Notes under the pieces: model-generated
The model's input: the letters and a program-made list of their open reading frames with translations, nothing else
What the model was told of the DNA's origin: nothing
Databases searched by the model: none
Shown here: piece by piece, positions 5,027 to 64,000 of the stretch
Layout of the letters: the number at the start of each line of letters is the position of its first letter
Position numbering within the stretch: position 1 is the stretch's first letter
Made by a program: the position numbers and the translations under genes
NCBI RefSeq assembly: GCF_012769535.1
Contig: NZ_CP046565.1
Location: 944,501 to 1,008,500 of the forward strand
DNA from: Methylococcus geothermalis
GTDB taxonomy: Bacteria; Pseudomonadota; Gammaproteobacteria; Methylococcales; Methylococcaceae
Direction of reading: 5' to 3'
DNA: 64,000 bases

Positions 5027-5230
5027 ATGGACACCGAACCGCGTGTTTGTGACTTGTGCAGTCTGCCCGTGATTCCGCCGGGCTTTCCGCTGAATACGAC
5101 CAGCGGGCTCAAGGTCTTCTGCTGCGAAGGCTGCCAGGGCATTTACAGGATGCTTCACGAGGCCGACATCCTCGTCGAGGCTGCCGCCAGCCACGCGGAA
5201 GGGCCGGATTTACCTCATTCGAACAAATGA
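5027..5230 (+). CDS. Stand-alone Cys-rich metal-binding domain (ATPase-cat_bd type)
   Basis: A 67-residue protein carrying CDLC near residue 9 and VFCCEGCQGIY near residue 30. This Cys pattern is typical of the putative metal-binding domain that normally forms the extreme N-terminus of CcoI/FixI-type P1B ATPases. Here it is a separate small protein about 1.1 kb upstream of an ATPase whose own N-terminus lacks it. A role as a metal donor or sensor for that ATPase is inferred. AAGGAGA precedes the ATG at good spacing. Confidence 0.8.
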   Translation: MDTEPRVCDLCSLPVIPPGFPLNTTSGLKVFCCEGCQGIYRMLHEADILVEAAASHAEGPDLPHSNK

Positions 5231-56176: not shown

Positions 56177-57745
56177 TCAGGTCCTGGTCTCGACGCGGCG
56201 TGACAAATCGGCAAAAACACCCGCGAGATCATGCAGGACTTCCTGGTTGGCATAGCGAACCACTTCCAGCCCAAGGGAATTCAGAAAGCGCGTCCGTTCG
56301 CCATCGTATTCGATTTGCCGGGCATGGCTGTCGCCGTCGATCTCGATGACCAGTTGAAGTTCGGAGCAATAGAAATCGACGATGTAGCTGCCTATGGGTT
56401 TTTGCCGCAGGAACTTGTACCGAGCGAACTGGCGGCAGCGCAGCACTTTGTTCCAGAGCAAGGATTCGGCCGGGGTGGGGTTCCTGCGGTTTTCACGGGC
56501 CAGGGCGGTGAGGTTCTTGTCGTAGGGGAGGTAGATGGCCCTCTGAACCCTCCTGCCCCCAACCCCCCTGCCCCCCTTATCAGGGGGGTTATCAAGGGGG
56601 TGCGGCGAGGACGCTCCGGCTTTTTCCTCGAGAAGGGATTGAGAGGACGGTGTATCTTCCCCCCTGACAAGGGGGGATTGAGGGGGGTTATTTTTCATCA
56701 TCTTAACGTCGATGCCTGTTACACCCCCCGGCTCCCCCATCCGCCCGATCCGGCCCGACTGAGCATAGCCCTGCGACTCGAACAAGGCCATGACCTCGCC
56801 GGCGCTCGCCGGATCGCAGGCGACCAGCAGGCCCCCGCTGGTCTGGGGATCGCACAGCAGCTTGTGCTGCCATTCGGCCAGCTCGGGGCTCAGACGGACC
56901 CAAGCGCCGTAGCTGTCCCAGTTGCGGGCGGCGGCGCCGGTGGCGTAGCCTTCCTGGGCCAGTTCCCTGGCGATGTCGATGACGGGAATGTCGCCGAAGA
57001 CGATCTCCGCGCCGAGACTCGATCCCCGGCAGATTTCCAGGAGATGCCCGAGCAGGCCGAAGCCGGTGACGTCGGTCATGGCATGGACCCCGTCGAGCTC
57101 CGCCAGCGCCGCGCCGACGCTGTTCAGGCGGGTGGTGTGTTCGATCATCCGGGCATAGCCCGTGGCATCGAGTCGGCCTTTTTTGAGAGCCGCGCTGAGG
57201 ACGCCCACACCTAAGGGTTTGCCCAGGATCAGCACGTCGCCGGGCCGGGCCCCGTCGTTGCGCTTCAGCTTGTCCGGATGCACCAGGCCGAGCGCCACCA
57301 GGCCGTAGATGGGTTCGGGGGAGTCGATCGAGTGCCCGCCGGCGATGGGGATTCCCGCCGCTTCGCACACCGCCGCGCCGCCGGCCAGGATCTTCCGCAT
57401 CGTCTCCACCGGCAGCTTGTCCACCGGCATGCCCACCACCGCCAGGGCCAGGATCGGCGTGCCGCCCATGGCGTAGACGTCGGACAGGGCGTTGGTGGCG
57501 GCGATGCGGCCGAAATCGTAAGGATCGTCGACGATCGGCATGAAGAAATCGGTGGTGGCGACCACGGCCTGATGGGGCCCGATACGGTAGACCGCGGCGT
57601 CGTCGCTGGTCTCCGTACCGACCAGCAGGTCGGGAAAGCGGCTCGCCAGGGGCAGTTCCGCCAGCATCTGCGACAGCACGGCGGGGGCGATCTTGCAGCC
57701 ACAGCCGCCGCCGTGGGAGAGCGTGGTCAATCGGACGTCGGTCAT
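56177..57745 (-). CDS. selD: Selenide water dikinase fused to a DUF559 nuclease-like domain
   Basis: A 522-residue in-frame fusion. Residues 1-345 are a complete SelD, which makes selenophosphate from selenide and ATP: GGGCGCK with the catalytic Cys15 and Lys18, [60 protein letters not shown] linker made of a Pro/Gly-rich repeat ([23 protein letters not shown]) follows, then a DUF559 domain ([53 protein letters not shown]) of the very-short-patch-repair-like nuclease fold. It is the last gene of the selenium operon, 10 bases after the TusA-ferritin gene. Confidence 0.9.
56528..56705 (-). repeat. C/G-run repeat segment encoding the SelD-DUF559 linker
   Basis: This stretch holds two short inverted C-run/G-run units (CCCCCTTATCAGGGGGG and CCCCCCTGACAAGGGGGG) and matches the pattern of dispersed repeats that encode NPPxSPLxxG-like peptides when translated. 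It forms the junction between the SelD and DUF559 parts, suggesting that the fusion arose by insertion or recombination at this repeat. Confidence 0.65.
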
Positions 57746-57755
57746 TGGAGGGGCC

Positions 57756-58970
57756 TCACATGAAATTCCGGGTATGCAGGCTGGCCAGTCGCCGGGCCTG
57801 GTTTTCCTCGAAGCCGAGCTTCTGCAGGCGCAGGCGGCGGCCTTCGGCCATCTCTCGCTGCAGCGTCTGCACCGCTTCGAAGCCGCGGGCGATCGCCGCC
57901 GGCGACCAGGCGCCCGCCGCGAGCAGCACCAGGGCGTCGTAGACTTCCTCGTTGAGCCCGGCGCTGGCGGCGAGGCTGTCGTAGCGCAGTTCCACCGCAT
58001 TGGCCAGCCGGCTGCGCAGCTCGGGTTCCCGCCGCAGTCGCTGGAGCAGGTGGGCCATGCCGAAGGCCACGTGGCGGGCCTCGTCCCGCGCCGCCAGCCG
58101 AGCGATCTGGGCGGTGACCGGGTCGGGGGCGTGGGCATGGAGGAAATGCAGCAGATTGACGAAGGTGCCTTCGCCCAGCACCGAGAGCAGGAAGGAAGCG
58201 ATCGAGAAATCCGGCGCGTCGAACAGGGTCTTGAGCGAGCTTTGCCCGCCGGCGGTGGACAGGGCCGGTTCCCGCCGTTTCAGCCGGGCGCGGCGGGTGA
58301 ACACCTCGACGTGGCGGGCCTCGTCCGCCACCTGGATCGCCAGCAACTGCATGATCTCGCGGTAATGCGGATGGATGCGGCCGAGGAAGCGGGCGGGTAT
58401 CAGCAGGGCGGCGTTCTCGTTCTCGATGAGGTAGGTCATGACCTGCACCACCGCGTCCTCGACCTCGTCCGGCAGCTCGAACGGGGCGTTCCAGTCCACC
58501 GCGGTTTCCGGATCCCATTGCGCGGCCAGCGCCTGGCGGTACAGTTCCGCCGCTTCTTCGGCCCAGACCTCGGCCTTGCGGTCCAGCGGGAAATGCCATT
58601 CCGGCCCGCCGGCCTCCACCGTCGCTCCTCGCGCCGCCAGGCCCCAGCGGGACTCCGCCCGTTCGGCCACGGCTTCGGGTTCGCCCGGATCGGCCTTGCC
58701 GCAGCGTTCCGCGCCTTGCCAGCGTCCGGTCTGATAGCCGCCGCGGACGATGTCGGCCCGATTGTCGGTCACTTCGGCCAGCCGATGGCCCTGCGCCCGG
58801 CACCAGGCGGCGAGATGGGCCTGGAAGCCGGGCGCGCAGGCGCGCACGCGCAGGGTCGCGCCGGGCGGAATGCGGCTCAAGGCCCGCTTGACCAGCAGGT
58901 GCGCTCCGCGGTCGAAGCCGAGCGCCTCAATATCGATAGTCGGCGGCGAGGATGCGTCCATCGGGAGCAT
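57756..58970 (-). CDS. TusA-like fold fused to a ferritin-like di-iron domain
   Basis: A 404-residue protein with two parts. Residues 10-65 look like the TusA/SirA fold ([34 protein letters not shown]), but the sulfur-carrying Cys of the CPxP loop is replaced by DRGAH. The rest is a ferritin-like helical domain with a duplicated di-iron set: Glu183/185 then ADEARH (217-220), and Glu267 then RDEARH (297-300). It lies between a PhnD-like gene and selD, with a 10-base gap to selD. An oxidase or oxygenase role tied to selenium or sulfur handling is inferred; no substrate is known. The start overlaps the upstream gene by 44 bases; ATGs at 58970 and 58961 are both possible. Confidence 0.82.
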
Positions 58971-59784
58971 AAAACCCTTGCCGGTCGACCGCCGCCTCCA
59001 GTAGCCCGTAGCCGCTGCTGCGCCCCGGCAGCCATTGCTTGAGTCCTTCCAGTTCCAGCAGGGGGCGGACCGCCGGGTCGTCCCAGGACATGGCCAGCAA
59101 CAGTTCGACGAAGCGCCCGACCCGTCCTGCCGGTGCGCCGGGGCTGGCGGTGAAGTTGCAGTGGTCGTAGGCGCCGGTCTGCGCCAGGATGCGGGTCGCG
59201 CCCGGCGTCAGGGTGCCGTCGGTGGTGAAGGCGAGGTGGTTGCCGTCGATCAGGCAGGCCGCATCGACTTCCCCGCGCAGCAGCGCCAGCGCCGCATCGC
59301 GCTCGCCGCCGATGTGGTCGCCGTGCTTGCCGCCGAGCAGGTCGAAGCGGCGGACGGCGAAGTCGCGTCCCGCCTGCAGGCCGTTTCTGGCCAGGTGTTC
59401 GAGCGGGATGAGGGTGGCCTGCGGCGAATCGACCGCGCCGAAGCCGACGGTCTTGCCGCGCAGGCCGTCCAGGGTTTCGATGCCGGCATCGGCGCGGACC
59501 ACGATCAGGGAAGTCAGGTCGCGGTCGGTGTCGCGCATCGCGACCGCATCGACCGACGAACCCCGCGCCTTCGCCAGGCGCTCGGCCCGCAGCCAGGCCA
59601 GCGGCGAGTTCCAGGCCAGGTGGATCGTGCCGTCGAACTGGGCTTCGACCTGGCGCTCGTAGTTGGAGTACAGCAGGTAGTCGAAGGCCAGGCCCTGGTC
59701 GGCGAAATGCGCCTTGAAGCCTTCCCAGATGGTGACCACCTTCGGCGCATAGGCCACCGCGCCCAGGATCAGCGTTTCGCTCAT
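58927..59784 (-). CDS. PhnD-like substrate-binding protein without signal peptide
   Basis: A 285-residue type II periplasmic-binding fold of the phosphate/phosphonate (PhnD) group (LILGAVAYAPKVVTIWEGFK; DGTIHLAWNSPLAWLRAE; RDTDRDLTSLIVVRADAGI; LRGKTVGFGAVDSPQATLIP; GEVDAACLIDGNHLAF). No signal peptide or lipobox is present and no permease or ATPase genes lie nearby, so it may work in the cytoplasm as a sensor, carrier or enzyme. It lies 12 bases after the flavoprotein gene. PhnD-like proteins next to selD are sometimes annotated as putative selenate binders, but I cannot verify that here. Confidence 0.8.
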   Translation of the reverse strand: MSETLILGAVAYAPKVVTIWEGFKAHFADQGLAFDYLLYSNYERQVEAQFDGTIHLAWNSPLAWLRAERLAKARGSSVDAVAMRDTDRDLTSLIVVRADAGIETLDGLRGKTVGFGAVDSPQATLIPLEHLARNGLQAGRDFAVRRFDLLGGKHGDHIGGERDAALALLRGEVDAACLIDGNHLAFTTDGTLTPGATRILAQTGAYDHCNFTASPGAPAGRVGRFVELLLAMSWDDPAVRPLLELEGLKQWLPGRSSGYGLLEAAVDRQGFYAPDGRILAADYRY

Positions 59785-59796
59785 GGTTGCGATTCT

Positions 59797-60912
59797 CTAG
59801 AACAGGGGCAGGCCGCAGACGGCCTTGCCGATGAAGTCGTACAGCACGTCGGAGGTGGGCGCCATCACCGCCGCCGCGCGGGCGTCGCGGAACGGGCGCT
59901 CGATGGCCAGATCCTTGCGGAAGGCCGCCCCGCCGCACACCCGCATGGCGGTATCGGTGACCGCCAGCGCAGCCTCCGCCGCGGCCGCCTTGACTTCCAG
60001 CACCCGCAACAGGGCATCGTCCCGTGCCGATGCCAGCGCCTCCAGGGTGTCGTTCAGCAGCGCCTCGACCCCGTCGGCGCGGATGCGGGCGCGGGCCAGG
60101 TAGGCGCGCAGCGTGGGCAGGTCCGCCAGGCAGGAGCCCAGATGTTCCAGCCGGGTCCGGCCGGCGTGGGCGCAGGCGCGCTCCAGCGCCGATTCCATCA
60201 GGCCGAGCGAGCAGGAGGCGTTCAACACCGAAAAGATCGGCAGCACGACCTCCATCATGATGGCGAAGCCGCCCCCATCGGCGCCGAGCCGCGCCGTGGT
60301 CGGCACCCGTGCGCTTTCGGCCACGATGGGCGCCGAGGCGTTGCCCCGCAGCCCCAGGCCGTCGAACGGCTTGGGCCGACGCAAGCCGGGGTTGCCGGCG
60401 GCGACCAGCCAGAGCGTGCTGGCGCCTTCGGCTTGCACCGGCCGCGACGACCACACGTAGGAATCGGCCTCGCCGGCCGAGGTCACCATGGTCTTGGCGC
60501 CGCTCAGCAGCACATCGTCGCCGTCGGCCGAGGCGACGCCCAGCGGCGCCCAGAAATGGCTGCGCGAGCCGGATTCGGAAAAGGCGAGGGTGGCGAGATG
60601 GCGGCCGGCCGCGATTTCGCGGCGCAACTCGGGCGGGCCGTATTTCTCGACGACCGCCGTGGCGCAGTAGTGCATGGTCACCACCATGGCGGTGGAGCCG
60701 CAGGCACGCGCCAAGCGCGACACCACGGCACTGGCGTCGGCCAGCGAGCCGCCGAGCCCGCCGACCTCGGCCGAACTGATCAGCCCCAACAGGCCGGCCT
60801 GGCCCAGGGCGGCGACGGCGGAGCGTGGAAACAGGGCGTCGCGGTCCACCGCCTCGGCGGCCGGTGCCACGACGGACGCGACGATATCGTCCAGGGCTTC
60901 GAGCTTCTTCAT
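59797..60912 (-). CDS. Acyl-CoA-dehydrogenase-fold flavoprotein lacking the catalytic Glu
   Basis: A 371-residue flavoprotein of the acyl-CoA dehydrogenase superfamily (LLGLISSAEVGGLGGSLAD; ATLAFSESGSRSHFW; GAKTMVTSAGEADSYV; AMRVCGGAAFRKDLAIERPF). The YEGT motif that carries the catalytic base of ordinary dehydrogenases is replaced near residue 350 by AVMAPTSDVLYDF, and the ending GKAVCGLPLF resembles DszC/SfnB-type flavin-dependent monooxygenases. It is therefore more likely an oxygenase acting on a small S- or Se-containing compound than a beta-oxidation enzyme. It follows tRNA-Sec in the selenium operon and heads the three-gene set. Confidence 0.82.
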   Translation of the reverse strand: MKKLEALDDIVASVVAPAAEAVDRDALFPRSAVAALGQAGLLGLISSAEVGGLGGSLADASAVVSRLARACGSTAMVVTMHYCATAVVEKYGPPELRREIAAGRHLATLAFSESGSRSHFWAPLGVASADGDDVLLSGAKTMVTSAGEADSYVWSSRPVQAEGASTLWLVAAGNPGLRRPKPFDGLGLRGNASAPIVAESARVPTTARLGADGGGFAIMMEVVLPIFSVLNASCSLGLMESALERACAHAGRTRLEHLGSCLADLPTLRAYLARARIRADGVEALLNDTLEALASARDDALLRVLEVKAAAAEAALAVTDTAMRVCGGAAFRKDLAIERPFRDARAAAVMAPTSDVLYDFIGKAVCGLPLF

Positions 60913-61353
60913 GGGCAGACCTGTCACATGAAAAAAGCCGGTCGGATGAGACCGGATGGGCCGCAACCAGGCACGCGGGCCGGGTTCGCGGTGGCGTGCG
61001 GCGAGGCTCGTTTCAGACCGCGCCGGCCGGCACATTTTGCCACGGCGCCGGGCCATCCGTATGCATTTTCGCTCCGGAGGCACTCGAAAGCCGTATTCTC
61101 CGGCTGTCCGGAGGCGCGAAGCCAGCCTACCCATGGCGCCACCGGTGGACTGTCAGGTGTTCCGACGAGAGGCAGGCATGACGGCTTCATCCAGCCGTTT
61201 CTCCCTTGACTTTTAGGGGTGACACCCGCCGCATCTCGCTCCAGGTTGCCGAGGTGAACCGATCTGCCCATGCCGCAGTCCCCGCATGACACGGGCAAAA
61301 CGCTCTTGCCGGCGCGGGTCCTGATCGTGCATGGCGTCACTTGGACCGGATGC
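60913..61353. other. 441-base leader between tRNA-Sec and the flavoprotein gene
   Basis: GC-rich stretch with no supported protein gene. It ends in a terminator-like hairpin only 18 bases before the flavoprotein start, and it contains further inverted repeats (CTCCGG/CCGGAG near 61085-61115). A short minus-strand frame ends in a CGGCH motif, but it has no ribosome site. I find no match to a known riboswitch core by eye. Confidence 0.45.
60931..60955 (-). terminator. Terminator-like hairpin just upstream of the flavoprotein gene
   Basis: On the minus strand CCGGTC and GACCGG pair around a six-base loop and are followed by CTTTTTT. The T-run ends 18 bases before the flavoprotein ATG. It may end transcripts from tRNA-Sec or act as an attenuator in the leader. 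Confidence 0.75.
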
Positions 61354-61449
61354 TGGCGGAAGAGAATGGGAGTCGAACCCACCTGAGGCCGTCTCACGGC
61401 CCCATCCGGTTTTGAAGACCGGCCGCCCCACCGGGGACGCTGCTCTTCC
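61354..61449 (-). tRNA. selC: Selenocysteine tRNA (anticodon UCA)
   Basis: A 96-base tRNA with the selenocysteine form. It has an 8-bp acceptor stem (GGAAGAGC with TCTCTTCC, one mismatch), the anticodon loop CTTCAAA with TCA, and a long variable arm. The T-arm GTGGGTTCGACTCCCA is followed by discriminator G and an encoded CCA. It lies 44 bases after selB on the same strand. Its presence shows that UGA is read as selenocysteine somewhere in this genome. Confidence 0.95.
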
Positions 61450-61493: not shown

Positions 61494-63398
61494 TTAGAAC
61501 TCCAAGGTTTCGTTGCGAAGGCGGTGGCTGTCCTTGACGCGGCGGGTCAGGCCGATGCGGTCGAAGAATTCCAGGATGTGGATGGCGAGCTTGCGGCCGG
61601 TGCCGATACGGTTGCGGAATTCGGCGGCCAACACGGCGCCGTCCGGGCTGTCGCCGGCGGCCTGCCGGACGATGGCGGCGAGTTGGGCGACGGCGGTCCG
61701 GTCGAAGTAGTGGTCGTGGGCGACGCGGTACACCCGCCCGAGCCGGGCGGTGCGCATCAGCAGCCGGCGCACCGCCGTTTCGTCGAGGTTCTCGGCGCGG
61801 GCGATGTCGCGTACCCGGGGTGGCTGGAACGGCTCGGCGGTCAGCCGCGGCGCGAGACGGTTCCACAGGGCTTCGTCTTCCGGGGCGAGGCTGAGTTCAT
61901 GGCCGGGCAGGTGCCACCAGGAGCCGTCGCGGCGGCACTGGCCATCGGCCAGCAGCTCGGCCAGGAGCGCACCGAACGCCGGGCGTTCCATCCGGGGCGC
62001 GGTGCGCAGGCGCAGCTGCTCGGTGTTGAGGCCCAGCGAATCGGGCACGTCTTGATGTTCCTGCCGCAGGGCGGCGATGACCTCGGCGCGGAGCGCCGCC
62101 CAATGCGCCGGGGAAAAGGCGAGCGGGCTGGCGCCGTCGATTTTCTTCAGGGCCAGCTTGGCGCAGAGTCTGTCGGTCTCGGCTGCGGTCAGGTTGGCAT
62201 TGGCGGCGAAGGCGCCGAGATCGACGCCGTTCGGCGCGCAGTCCAGCAGGGCCCCGAGCCGGGTTTCGGGAAGGTCCTGTTCCCAGGCGGTCAGGATGGC
62301 GCGGCGCTGCGGCGAGCGGCGGCCCCGGGCAGGAGGCTGGGTGTCGAGCACCGTGCCGCCGGCCAGGGTTCGCTGGGCGGCGGCATCGCGCAGGATGCAG
62401 CGGTCGCCCTGGACCGCGCAGGTGGGCTGGTCCAGCACCAGTTGTGCCCAGGCGCTCGCGCCCGGCTCCAGCGTGTCCGCTTCGAGCAGGGCGACATGAC
62501 CGGCGGACCGGAACGCGCCGAGGTGGACGTGCACCGGCGTCCAGTGGCGCAGCGGCCGGGCTTCGCTGCCCAGCAGCCGGAGCCGGACGTCCAGCCGCCG
62601 CGTCGGCCGCTGCAGGGCCGGCGCCAGCACCCAGTCGCCGCGCTGCACCTCGTGTTTTTCCACGCCGGCCAGATTGAGGGCGCAGCGCTGGCCGGTCTGG
62701 CCGGATTCCGCGGGGCGGTTCTGGGCGTGGATGCCGCGGATGCGGACTTTCAGGCCGGACGGGGCGACGAGCAGATGATCGCCGGCGCGGACCTTGCCGG
62801 AAAACACGGTGCCGGTCACCACCGTGCCGATGCCGGCGACGGTGAAGCTGCGGTCCACCGCCAGGCGGAAGCCGCCGCCGGGGAGGCGGGCGTCGAGCCG
62901 GGCCGCCGCCGCTTCCAGATGGGCGCGGAGTTCGGCCACGCCGGCGCCGGTGTGGGCCGATACCTCGAACAGCGGGCAGCCGGCGAGGCGGGTGCCGGTC
63001 AGCATGGTTTCGATTTCTCCCCTGGCTGCGGCGATCCGTCCGGCATCGGCGAGATCGGTCTTGGTCAGGGCCACGGCGCCGTGCGCGACGCCGAGCAGGT
63101 CGATGATCTGGAGGTGTTCCACGGTCTGCGGCATGGGGCCGTCGTCGGCCGCCACCACCAGCAGGGCGAAGTCGATGCCGGTGGCGCCCGCCAGCATGTT
63201 GTGGATGAATTTCTCGTGGCCGGGCACGTCGACGAAGCCGAGGATGTCGCCGCTGCTCAGCGGGGTATAGGCATAGCCCAGGTCGATGGTGATGCCGCGG
63301 GATTTTTCTTCCGCCAGGCGGTCTGCGTCCACGCCGGTGAGCTGCTTCACCAGGGCGGTCTTGCCGTGGTCGATATGGCCCGCGGTGCCGACGATCAT
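61494..63398 (-). CDS. selB: Selenocysteine-specific elongation factor
   Basis: A 634-residue translation GTPase. The G domain is clear: [17 protein letters not shown], the [10 protein letters not shown] switch, [10 protein letters not shown] and TKTDLAD. It is followed by EF-Tu-like domains 2 and 3 and by a chain of winged-helix domains at the C-terminus that bind the SECIS hairpin ([30 protein letters not shown]). Its ATG overlaps the selA stop by 4 bases. Confidence 0.96.
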
Positions 63399-64000
63399 CC
63401 CGGGAATTCCAGCAAAGGCAGCTGGCCGAGGAAGGCCGCCTCGTCCTCCAGGCAGCGCAGGTCGAAGCGCAGGCCGCCATCTTCCAGCCGCCCAATGACG
63501 GGGAGGGGCAGGTCGCGGAAGGCTTGCGCCAGCCGGTTGAGGGCGCGCCCGCCGCCCTGCTGCGGGCGGAGGACGAGACAGGCGCTGGGCAGGCGGTCGA
63601 GCGGGAGCGAACCGCTGCCGATCTGGCTGCGGCAGGCTTCGACCGAAACCACGGCGCGTGCTCCCAGCGAGGCTTGCACGGCGGGCAGGAGACGCTGCGC
63701 CGCCGCGCGGATATCGGTTTCCGTCCGCGTCAGCAGCCGCAGGGTCGGCAGCCTTTCCGCCAGCCATTCGGGGCTGCGGTAAAGCCGCAGGGTCGCATCG
63801 AGGGCGGCGAGGGTCATCTTGTCCACCCTCAGGGCGCGCTTGAGCGGATTGCGCTTGATCCTGGCGATCAGCGCCTTGCATCCGACCAGGATGCCGGCCT
63901 GAGGGCCGCCCAACAGCTTGTCCCCGCTGAAGCTGACCAGGTCGGCGCCAGCGTTCAGCGCGTCCTGCGGCGTCGGTTCCTTCGGCAGGCCGTAGGCACC
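63395..64000 (-). CDS. selA: L-seryl-tRNA(Sec) selenium transferase, 5' end outside the window
   Basis: The C-terminal 201 residues of a PLP enzyme that converts seryl-tRNA(Sec) to selenocysteyl-tRNA(Sec) with selenophosphate. The PLP Lys motif [18 protein letters not shown] is present, followed by [20 protein letters not shown] and the C-terminal domain ([20 protein letters not shown]). The N-terminal half lies beyond base 64000. It is the first visible gene of the minus-strand selenium operon. Confidence 0.95.

Follow-up and report, generated by a model that had tools for sequence, protein, structure and literature searches.

A conserved three-gene set beside selD in Methylococcus geothermalis as a candidate accessory module of selenium supply

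Introduction

The route by which bacteria bring selenium to the selenophosphate synthetase SelD is a long-standing question, and the selD locus of Methylococcus geothermalis raises it in a particular form: what do the three genes do that stand there between the gene of the selenocysteine (Sec) tRNA, tRNA-Sec, and selD? In this work, a window of 64,000 nucleotides, the whole stretch from position 944501 to 1008500 of the 3.37-Mb single-contig genome, was analysed. The three genes are named here ACAD (acyl-CoA-dehydrogenase-fold flavoprotein), SBP (PhnD/PtxB-like binding protein), and TUSFER (TusA-like domain fused to a ferritin-like di-iron domain), and together the trio. An earlier note on this DNA had taken them for a pathway that frees selenium from an organic or oxidised source for SelD, a reading that as a whole is partly supported. 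The trio is very probably related to selenium, and the best overall explanation, which we hold with evenly balanced confidence, is an accessory selenium-supply module acting upstream of SelD.

SelD is fed by NifS-like selenocysteine lyases, by sulfurtransferases or by thioredoxin-linked selenite reduction. The trio would share its proposed role with these systems, whereas its proteins are unrelated to theirs, and the chemistry would be unrelated as well if O2 is used. The accessory selenium candidates named in the available text of one study are YedE, YedF, LysR-like, and DUF3343 proteins (PMC5322559). According to the accessible part of a 2026 review, a specific high-affinity selenium transport system has not been identified in prokaryotes (PMC13188914), and a 2024 study, in its accessible part, reports that five putative transporter loci were deleted in a methanogen and that none of them was strictly indispensable, whichever selenium source was given (PMC11097638).

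A conserved unit of three genes

The minus strand reads fdhE-selA-selB-tRNA-Sec-ACAD-SBP-TUSFER-selD, and the last four genes are closely spaced. ACAD (371 aa) occupies positions 59797–60912 and is followed after 12 bp by SBP (285 aa, 58927–59784), which overlaps TUSFER (404 aa, 57756–58970) by 44 bp; selD (56177–57745) begins 10 bp further on. The order from selA to selD and the spacing of 12 bases, an overlap, and 10 bases had been put forward in the earlier note, and both were confirmed, the order by the gene calls together with ARAGORN and Rfam.

Named genomes were scanned for TUSFER with a five-sequence alignment, which gave 158 confirmed relatives, and the best 80 of these 158 were analysed. 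Neighbouring genes at the loci were called by a simple script, 86 loci were clustered, and eight recurrent families were annotated. The trio was complete and co-directional in 76 of the 80 loci; of the four incomplete ones, L058 and L097 lie at contig ends, and L076 and L107 have no visible ACAD. The three families thus co-occur with each other, the arrangement is therefore not due to chance, and the trio is one conserved unit. By title, the best 80 of the 158 come from Beta-, Gamma-, and Deltaproteobacteria/Myxococcota, Actinomycetota, Acidobacteriota, Planctomycetota, and Rokuibacteriota. No TUSFER match was found in the plasmid collection.

Decay of the unit was seen in one relative of the window genome, G029 (locus L045, 6694–8178), where internal losses have disrupted both ACAD and TUSFER but left intact the SBP gene between them, selD, and tRNA-Sec. 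The loss of both enzyme genes with SelD kept is as expected of an accessory pathway. In another relative of the same genus (G002, locus L042), the trio and selD are kept, and no tRNA-Sec, selA, or selB was found in the 5 kb upstream (before position 5134).

Co-occurrence with SelD

The genome-level search started from 50 of the 80 loci, hand-picked to favour isolates and long contigs, and covered 49 genomes (all but that of L077). SelD was found above cut-off in 46 of the 49 TUSFER genomes, selA in 35, and mnmH, the gene for the selenouridine use, in 32. Each of the 46 genomes with selD has at least one of selA and mnmH: 19 have both, 12 only mnmH, and 15 only selA. The three genomes without selD are all records of metagenome-assembled genomes (MAGs), of which G466 has selA and G495 has mnmH. 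Seven of the 15 selenocysteine-only genomes are titled as strains (G481, G487, G494, G501, G502, G504, and G505). From this split of end uses it follows that the set goes with SelD whichever use is made of selenophosphate, rather than with Sec or selenouridine alone, and a role in selenium supply is therefore favoured. A role in Sec only, in selenouridine only, or in formate dehydrogenase would not predict this profile. The best selD matches in G491, G492, G497–G500, and G506 contain one in-frame TGA, and SelD itself may be a selenoprotein there.

Base rates were taken from a phylum sample, the relatives of the window genome, one order, and one family; Myxococcota, Acidobacteriota, and Planctomycetota lie outside them. 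In the phylum sample, selD was found in 129 of 398 genomes, and both of the genomes with a strong TUSFER match have it. Among the relatives, selD is present in 15 of 61, and all five genomes in which TUSFER matches strongly (in G029 as a remnant) are among these 15; the association has a hypergeometric probability of 5e-4 with kinship ignored. TUSFER is rare in the sample of the order of G256, where it was found in three of 250 genomes, all three with selD.

Linkage to selenium genes

One or more of selA, selB, selD, and tRNA-Sec stand within flanks of at most 10 kb in 20 of the 80 loci; among the 51 loci that have at least 9 kb on both flanks, this holds for 16. The Sec-linked arrangements differ among the window's family, Ideonella, Hydrogenophaga, Pseudacidovorax, Azoarcus, Novimethylophilus, Luteimonas, Streptomyces, and Microtetraspora. 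The order selA-selB-trio is found in Ideonella and Hylemonella, selA-trio-selB in Pseudacidovorax and one Hydrogenophaga, and trio-selD in other Hydrogenophaga; Streptomyces tibetensis has selD-selA-selB-trio, Microtetraspora has selD-trio-selA, and in Luteimonas the trio faces selD-selB-selA. A quick tree of TUSFER was built from 85 rows, of which 61 were scored for linkage (23 linked, 38 unlinked) and 24 were left unscored. Linkage to Sec genes requires at least eight changes on this tree, at least four of them forced by starred branches. One of the 20 linked loci, L055, titled Methyloversatilis universalis, is the same contig as G032 (locus L043) with an identical TUSFER; G032 is placed in the window's own family, and the title of L055 may be wrong.

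The TUSFER fusion protein

Neither Pfam nor NCBIfam yields a match to TUSFER above cut-off. Below threshold, it scores 26.3 bits for TusA (cut-off 28.6) and 22.8 bits for AurF (cut-off 29.6). The predicted structure, with a pLDDT of 89.9, backs both a TusA-like fold (approximately residues 1–80) and a ferritin-like domain, whose helices were modelled. With Foldseek, the N-terminal domain matches TusA of the IscS-TusA complex (3lvj_C) with a TM score of 0.78 by target, 2.1 Å, and 28% identity, and the ferritin-like domain matches aldehyde-deformylating oxygenase and VlmB. An E / ExxH / E / ExxH pattern is typical of aldehyde-deformylating oxygenase, VlmB, and AurF, and both this pattern and the fold are common to these enzymes and TUSFER. 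The putative di-iron ligands E183, E217, H220, E267, E297, and H300 are identical in all 85 TUSFER sequences (83 of them different). Judged from the model, these residues form two E and two ExxH groups within a helix bundle, as in a ferritin-like di-iron oxygenase. On the other hand, aldehyde-deformylating oxygenase and VlmB are only 16–20% identical to TUSFER, the AurF score is under its cut-off, and TUSFER differs from all three by the fused TusA-like domain and by a C-terminal HTRNFM tail, which is conserved among the TUSFER sequences.

The N-terminal domain shares its fold with TusA and YedF (SirA-like) proteins. However, the CPxP cysteine of TusA is absent from TUSFER, and the corresponding region reads DRGAH in the window, with G22 present in 84 and H24 in 79 of the 85 sequences; C57, which aligns with a TusA cysteine, is retained in 80. 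Of the description in the earlier note, a di-iron protein with a sulfur-carrier fold, both folds stand, whereas a classic sulfur-carrier role is doubtful because the usual CPxP cysteine is missing. The fusion partner also differs, being a di-iron domain in TUSFER and DsrE in YedF, a proposed selenium protein (PMC5322559).

The ACAD flavoprotein

ACAD carries the N-terminal, middle, and C-terminal acyl-CoA dehydrogenase domains (PF02771, PF02770, and PF00441), all above cut-off. Its top NCBIfam match is Rv1679/FadE16 (NF049984), with 415.8 bits under a cut-off of 600. When the mitochondrial short-chain acyl-CoA dehydrogenase segment RDARITEIYEGTSE is aligned with the ACAD segment RDARAAAVMAPTSD, YEGTSE stands opposite MAPTSD. 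The Glu of the YEGT motif is catalytic in the short-chain type of dehydrogenase, and its position in ACAD is Ala, Gly, or Ser in all 74 clustered sequences. Judged by its sequence, ACAD therefore has the acyl-CoA dehydrogenase fold and does not appear to be catalytically classic, as the catalytic Glu is lost. It had been called flavin oxygenase-like in the earlier note, a name that is uncertain: flavin monooxygenases are more distant from it by score than acyl-CoA dehydrogenases are, yet the catalytic residue of a dehydrogenase is gone. Furthermore, 3-sulfinopropanoyl-CoA desulfinase and SfnB share the fold, and ACAD scores 106.6 and 68.8 bits for them, well under the cut-offs of 600 and 430.9. 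In contrast to these sulfur enzymes, the trio has no sulfur-source family among the eight annotated recurrent neighbour families.

The SBP binding protein

SBP matches PF12974 (Phosphonate-bd) with 103.2 bits, and its predicted structure has the PhnD/PtxB fold, so that the description as a PhnD-like binding protein is borne out. Foldseek gives PhnD with an E-value of 2.4e-23 and PtxB with 7.6e-22, and HtxB, ArrX, and AioX also rank high; among the closest structures are proteins that bind phosphate, phosphite, hypophosphite, methylphosphonate, arsenate, or arsenite. The top NCBIfam relative is the Rv1680 SBP-like family (NF049985), with 237.5 bits under a cut-off of 400. H154, D156, H157, D207, H208, and C209 are invariant in 54 aligned trio SBPs of 250–340 residues. 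The fold is common to PhnD/PtxB-type binding proteins of transporters, but SBP is without their export signal and adjoining transporter genes. It has no signal peptide, as the first strand of the predicted structure runs from residue 5, whereas 32–39 residues precede the matched domain in three relatives of the family TIGR04553, and no transporter gene is present within the trio-selD unit of the window.

TIGR04553 is the binding protein of a putative selenate ABC transporter of PhnCDE-like type, which shares the SBP fold and a distant sequence kinship with the trio SBP. A homologue was found by tblastn in six of the 80 trio loci; the proteins at L080 (Pseudacidovorax), L083, and L092 (Hydrogenophaga) reach 360–402 bits against a cut-off of 250 and stand with PhnC/PhnE-like genes. 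The trio SBP of the window scores 47.8 bits and is not a member of the family: TIGR04553 proteins are periplasmic and accompanied by transporter genes, whereas a signal peptide is absent from the trio SBP, and many residues conserved in TIGR04553 are different in it. In G267 (locus L171, 154–3057), a match to a PhnD-like SBP (29% identity, one internal TAG) lies beside selD, with a frame at the same spot that by eye resembles an ABC ATPase; no TUSFER match was listed in this genome.

Evidence against a dedicated selenium-supply role

Several observations weigh against a selenium-supply role of the trio. The first is that selD is common in the main host order: it was found in 183 of 250 genomes of the order of G256 (Burkholderiales, as inferred), the source of many of the 49 genomes, and in 19 of 36 of the family of G505 (Micromonospora). 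With 0.73 taken as the base rate, the binomial probability of at least 46 in 49 is about 2.5e-4 with kinship ignored, and the weight of the 46 in 49 is only moderate because of the high frequency of selD in this order. One of the 49, the MAG G483, has no selD, selA, or mnmH. The selenouridine-only class is also less secure than its count of 12, as only G475 (Hydrogenophaga aromaticivorans) is titled as a strain; the other 11 are MAGs, bins, or unclear isolates, and some of the missing selA genes may be assembly gaps. Moreover, 35 of the 51 well-flanked loci have no Sec, selenouridine, or TIGR04553 gene within about 10 kb, and for most loci the link therefore rests on genome-level co-occurrence. 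The linkage label is clustered on the TUSFER tree, with eight changes against a mean of 18.6 for shuffled labels, which means that the linked loci are not all independent. The window genome contains no TIGR04553 protein above cut-off in the profile search. Even among selD genomes few carry the trio; SelD can thus do without it, and this rarity makes the trio look like a specialisation for a certain source or condition.

A further point comes from sibling genes. In G260 and G277, an ACAD-SBP pair with 49–50% and 35–36% identity to the trio pair occurs without TUSFER and without selD. Both sibling pairs have the MAPT motif in ACAD and Cys209 in SBP. In G277 (locus L169, 233–3507), the neighbour on the opposite strand encodes a radical SAM protein that belongs to the Rv1681 family (NF049973; 498.4 bits, cut-off 380), and the pair in G260 is also near a frame similar to this radical SAM gene. 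The pairs resemble the Rv1679-Rv1680-Rv1681 module (NF049984, NF049985, and NF049973), in which ACAD and SBP of the same families as those of the trio are adjacent, and the Rv1679-Rv1680 type and the trio have in common the MAPT motif in ACAD and a conserved GKHGD and Cys209 in SBP. In contrast to the trio, this type has a radical SAM neighbour (L169), no TUSFER was found, and neither genome has selD; ACAD and SBP of the window are, as given above, below both family cut-offs. Because the sibling pair occurs without selD, the chemistry of the ACAD-SBP unit need not be selenium-specific, which counts against a simple selenium-specific reading of the whole trio. TUSFER marks the version of ACAD-SBP that is found in selD genomes. 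If the trio proved to be a selenium form of the Rv1679-Rv1680 unit and the function of that unit were established, the trio would be better regarded as a variant of it.

Alternative explanations

The profile across genomes also fits roles of consumption or detoxification. In the first of these, the trio would turn selenophosphate into a further selenium metabolite or cofactor; TUSFER and ACAD would be the tailoring enzymes of this synthesis, and SBP would serve as a carrier. The known SelD-dependent traits are Sec, selenouridine, the Mo-hydroxylase cofactor, and selenoneine, and an additional consumer would follow selD irrespective of Sec or selenouridine, as the trio does; oxygenase-like and flavin enzymes are also typical of metabolite synthesis, as the VlmB relatives illustrate. 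However, a genome in which the trio is the only user of SelD was not found among the 46, each of which has selA or mnmH (genomes with neither are rare anyway), and the putative selenate transporter family beside the trio in six of 80 loci fits supply better. The gene neighbourhood speaks against consumption as well: the recurrent neighbours are Sec, formate dehydrogenase, ABC-ATPase/PhnE-like, and SDR genes, and no other family occurs in more than five of the 86 loci. We consider this explanation unlikely, and that the module supplies selenium rather than consuming it is favoured, with a chance a little better than even.

Still less likely is a safety valve, in which aerobic cells would use the trio to oxidise or sequester, in the vicinity of SelD, an excess of selenide or a selenium compound that is toxic. 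Such a function would likewise follow selD, and the di-iron and flavin domains could oxidise selenide, while SBP could buffer the ligand. On the other hand, the rarity of the trio in a sample where selD is frequent (three against 183 of the same 250 genomes) argues for a special source over a general need, and the putative import system linked in six of the 80 loci also speaks against disposal.

A sulfur module, or one of general acyl-CoA type, that has no selenium role and came to stand next to selD by joint transfer of an island is an improbable reading of the trio. The sibling pair without selD, the 35 unlinked among 51 well-flanked loci, and the resemblance of ACAD to SfnB and 3-sulfinopropanoyl-CoA desulfinase as well as to acyl-CoA dehydrogenases would agree with it. 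Against it stand the differing arrangements with at least eight changes of linkage on the tree, the presence of selD in 46 of 49 genomes with unlinked loci included, and the fact that TUSFER was not found in the two sibling-pair genomes that lack selD. Maturation of formate dehydrogenase, a molybdoenzyme, with the trio near Sec genes only by way of a Sec-containing formate dehydrogenase, is very improbable and was set aside: TusA supplies sulfur to Moco (molybdenum cofactor) enzymes, and a homologue of the catalytic subunit was found by tblastn in 13 of the 80 loci, with fdhE near many of them, but all 13 also carry selA, the Hydrogenophaga loci L075, L088, L089, and L092 pair the trio with selD and have no catalytic formate dehydrogenase gene in their flanks, and the trio is present in the 12 selD genomes with mnmH in which no selA was found, G475 being the one titled as a strain.

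Other features of the locus

Upstream of the trio on the minus strand, tRNA-Sec with anticodon TCA was located at 61354–61449 by ARAGORN (Rfam RF01852 at 61358–61449, 77.3 bits), 441 bp from ACAD. It is preceded by selB (61494–63398), which encodes the Sec-specific elongation factor of 634 aa and whose start overlaps the stop of selA; a homologue of selB adjoins selA in L043. Only the C-terminal part of selA (63395–64000) lies within the window, as the gene continues beyond its edge; the remainder was read from the genome, where fdhE adjoins selA outside the window. A terminator-like hairpin at 60955–60938 on the minus strand, 25 nt upstream of ACAD, was considered as a conserved terminator or attenuator and rejected, since among four aligned relatives it is common only to G002; the region has four terminator-like sites, where 3.2 would be expected. 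The first approximately 340 aa of the selD product are the selenophosphate synthetase (TIGR00476, 439.6 bits), which is followed by a C-terminal DUF559 extension. At the 3' end of the gene (56177–56760, minus strand), DUF559 is reached via a stretch with two CCCCCCTNNNNAGGGGGG repeats (56571–56588 and 56659–56676). A comparable extension of selD is open in G003, which has selD and no TUSFER match, and interrupted by stops in G002.

Proposed role and significance

We hypothesize that the trio acts upstream of SelD in the following way. The cytosolic SBP most likely binds a small selenium compound, which by the fold of the protein would be an oxyanion or oxyanion-like. ACAD with its flavin and the di-iron domain of TUSFER would then convert the bound compound, probably with O2, and selenium would be released in a form usable by SelD. 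The part of the TusA-like domain may be to bind a partner protein or to keep hold of the product, and selenium perhaps passes through it to SelD. That this chemistry is right as drawn is doubtful. We regard as possible, though tentative, the stronger reading of a dedicated O2-dependent selenium acquisition, in which an organic or oxidised selenium compound would be channelled to SelD for both selenocysteine and selenouridine in several phyla. Equally tentative is the set of parts that it would need, namely a cytosolic oxyanion-type SBP, a flavoenzyme without the dehydrogenase base, and a di-iron enzyme with a TusA-like selenium-holding domain.

The trio is not described in the open-access selenium literature that was searched, whose coverage leaves out most subscription journals. 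Ferritin and phosphonate are not mentioned in the available text of PMC5322559, PMC2432076, PMC13188914, PMC9312934, and PMC5029168, nor is acyl-CoA in the available text of the last four. The folds are known and sibling families exist in NCBIfam, while a selenium supply or use system made from these parts was not found described in the literature searched, which includes papers that name Rv1679 and Rv1681/MoeX. A conserved three-protein set that follows SelD across its end uses is a small gene set, and it could reveal a selenium compound that is scavenged by these bacteria.

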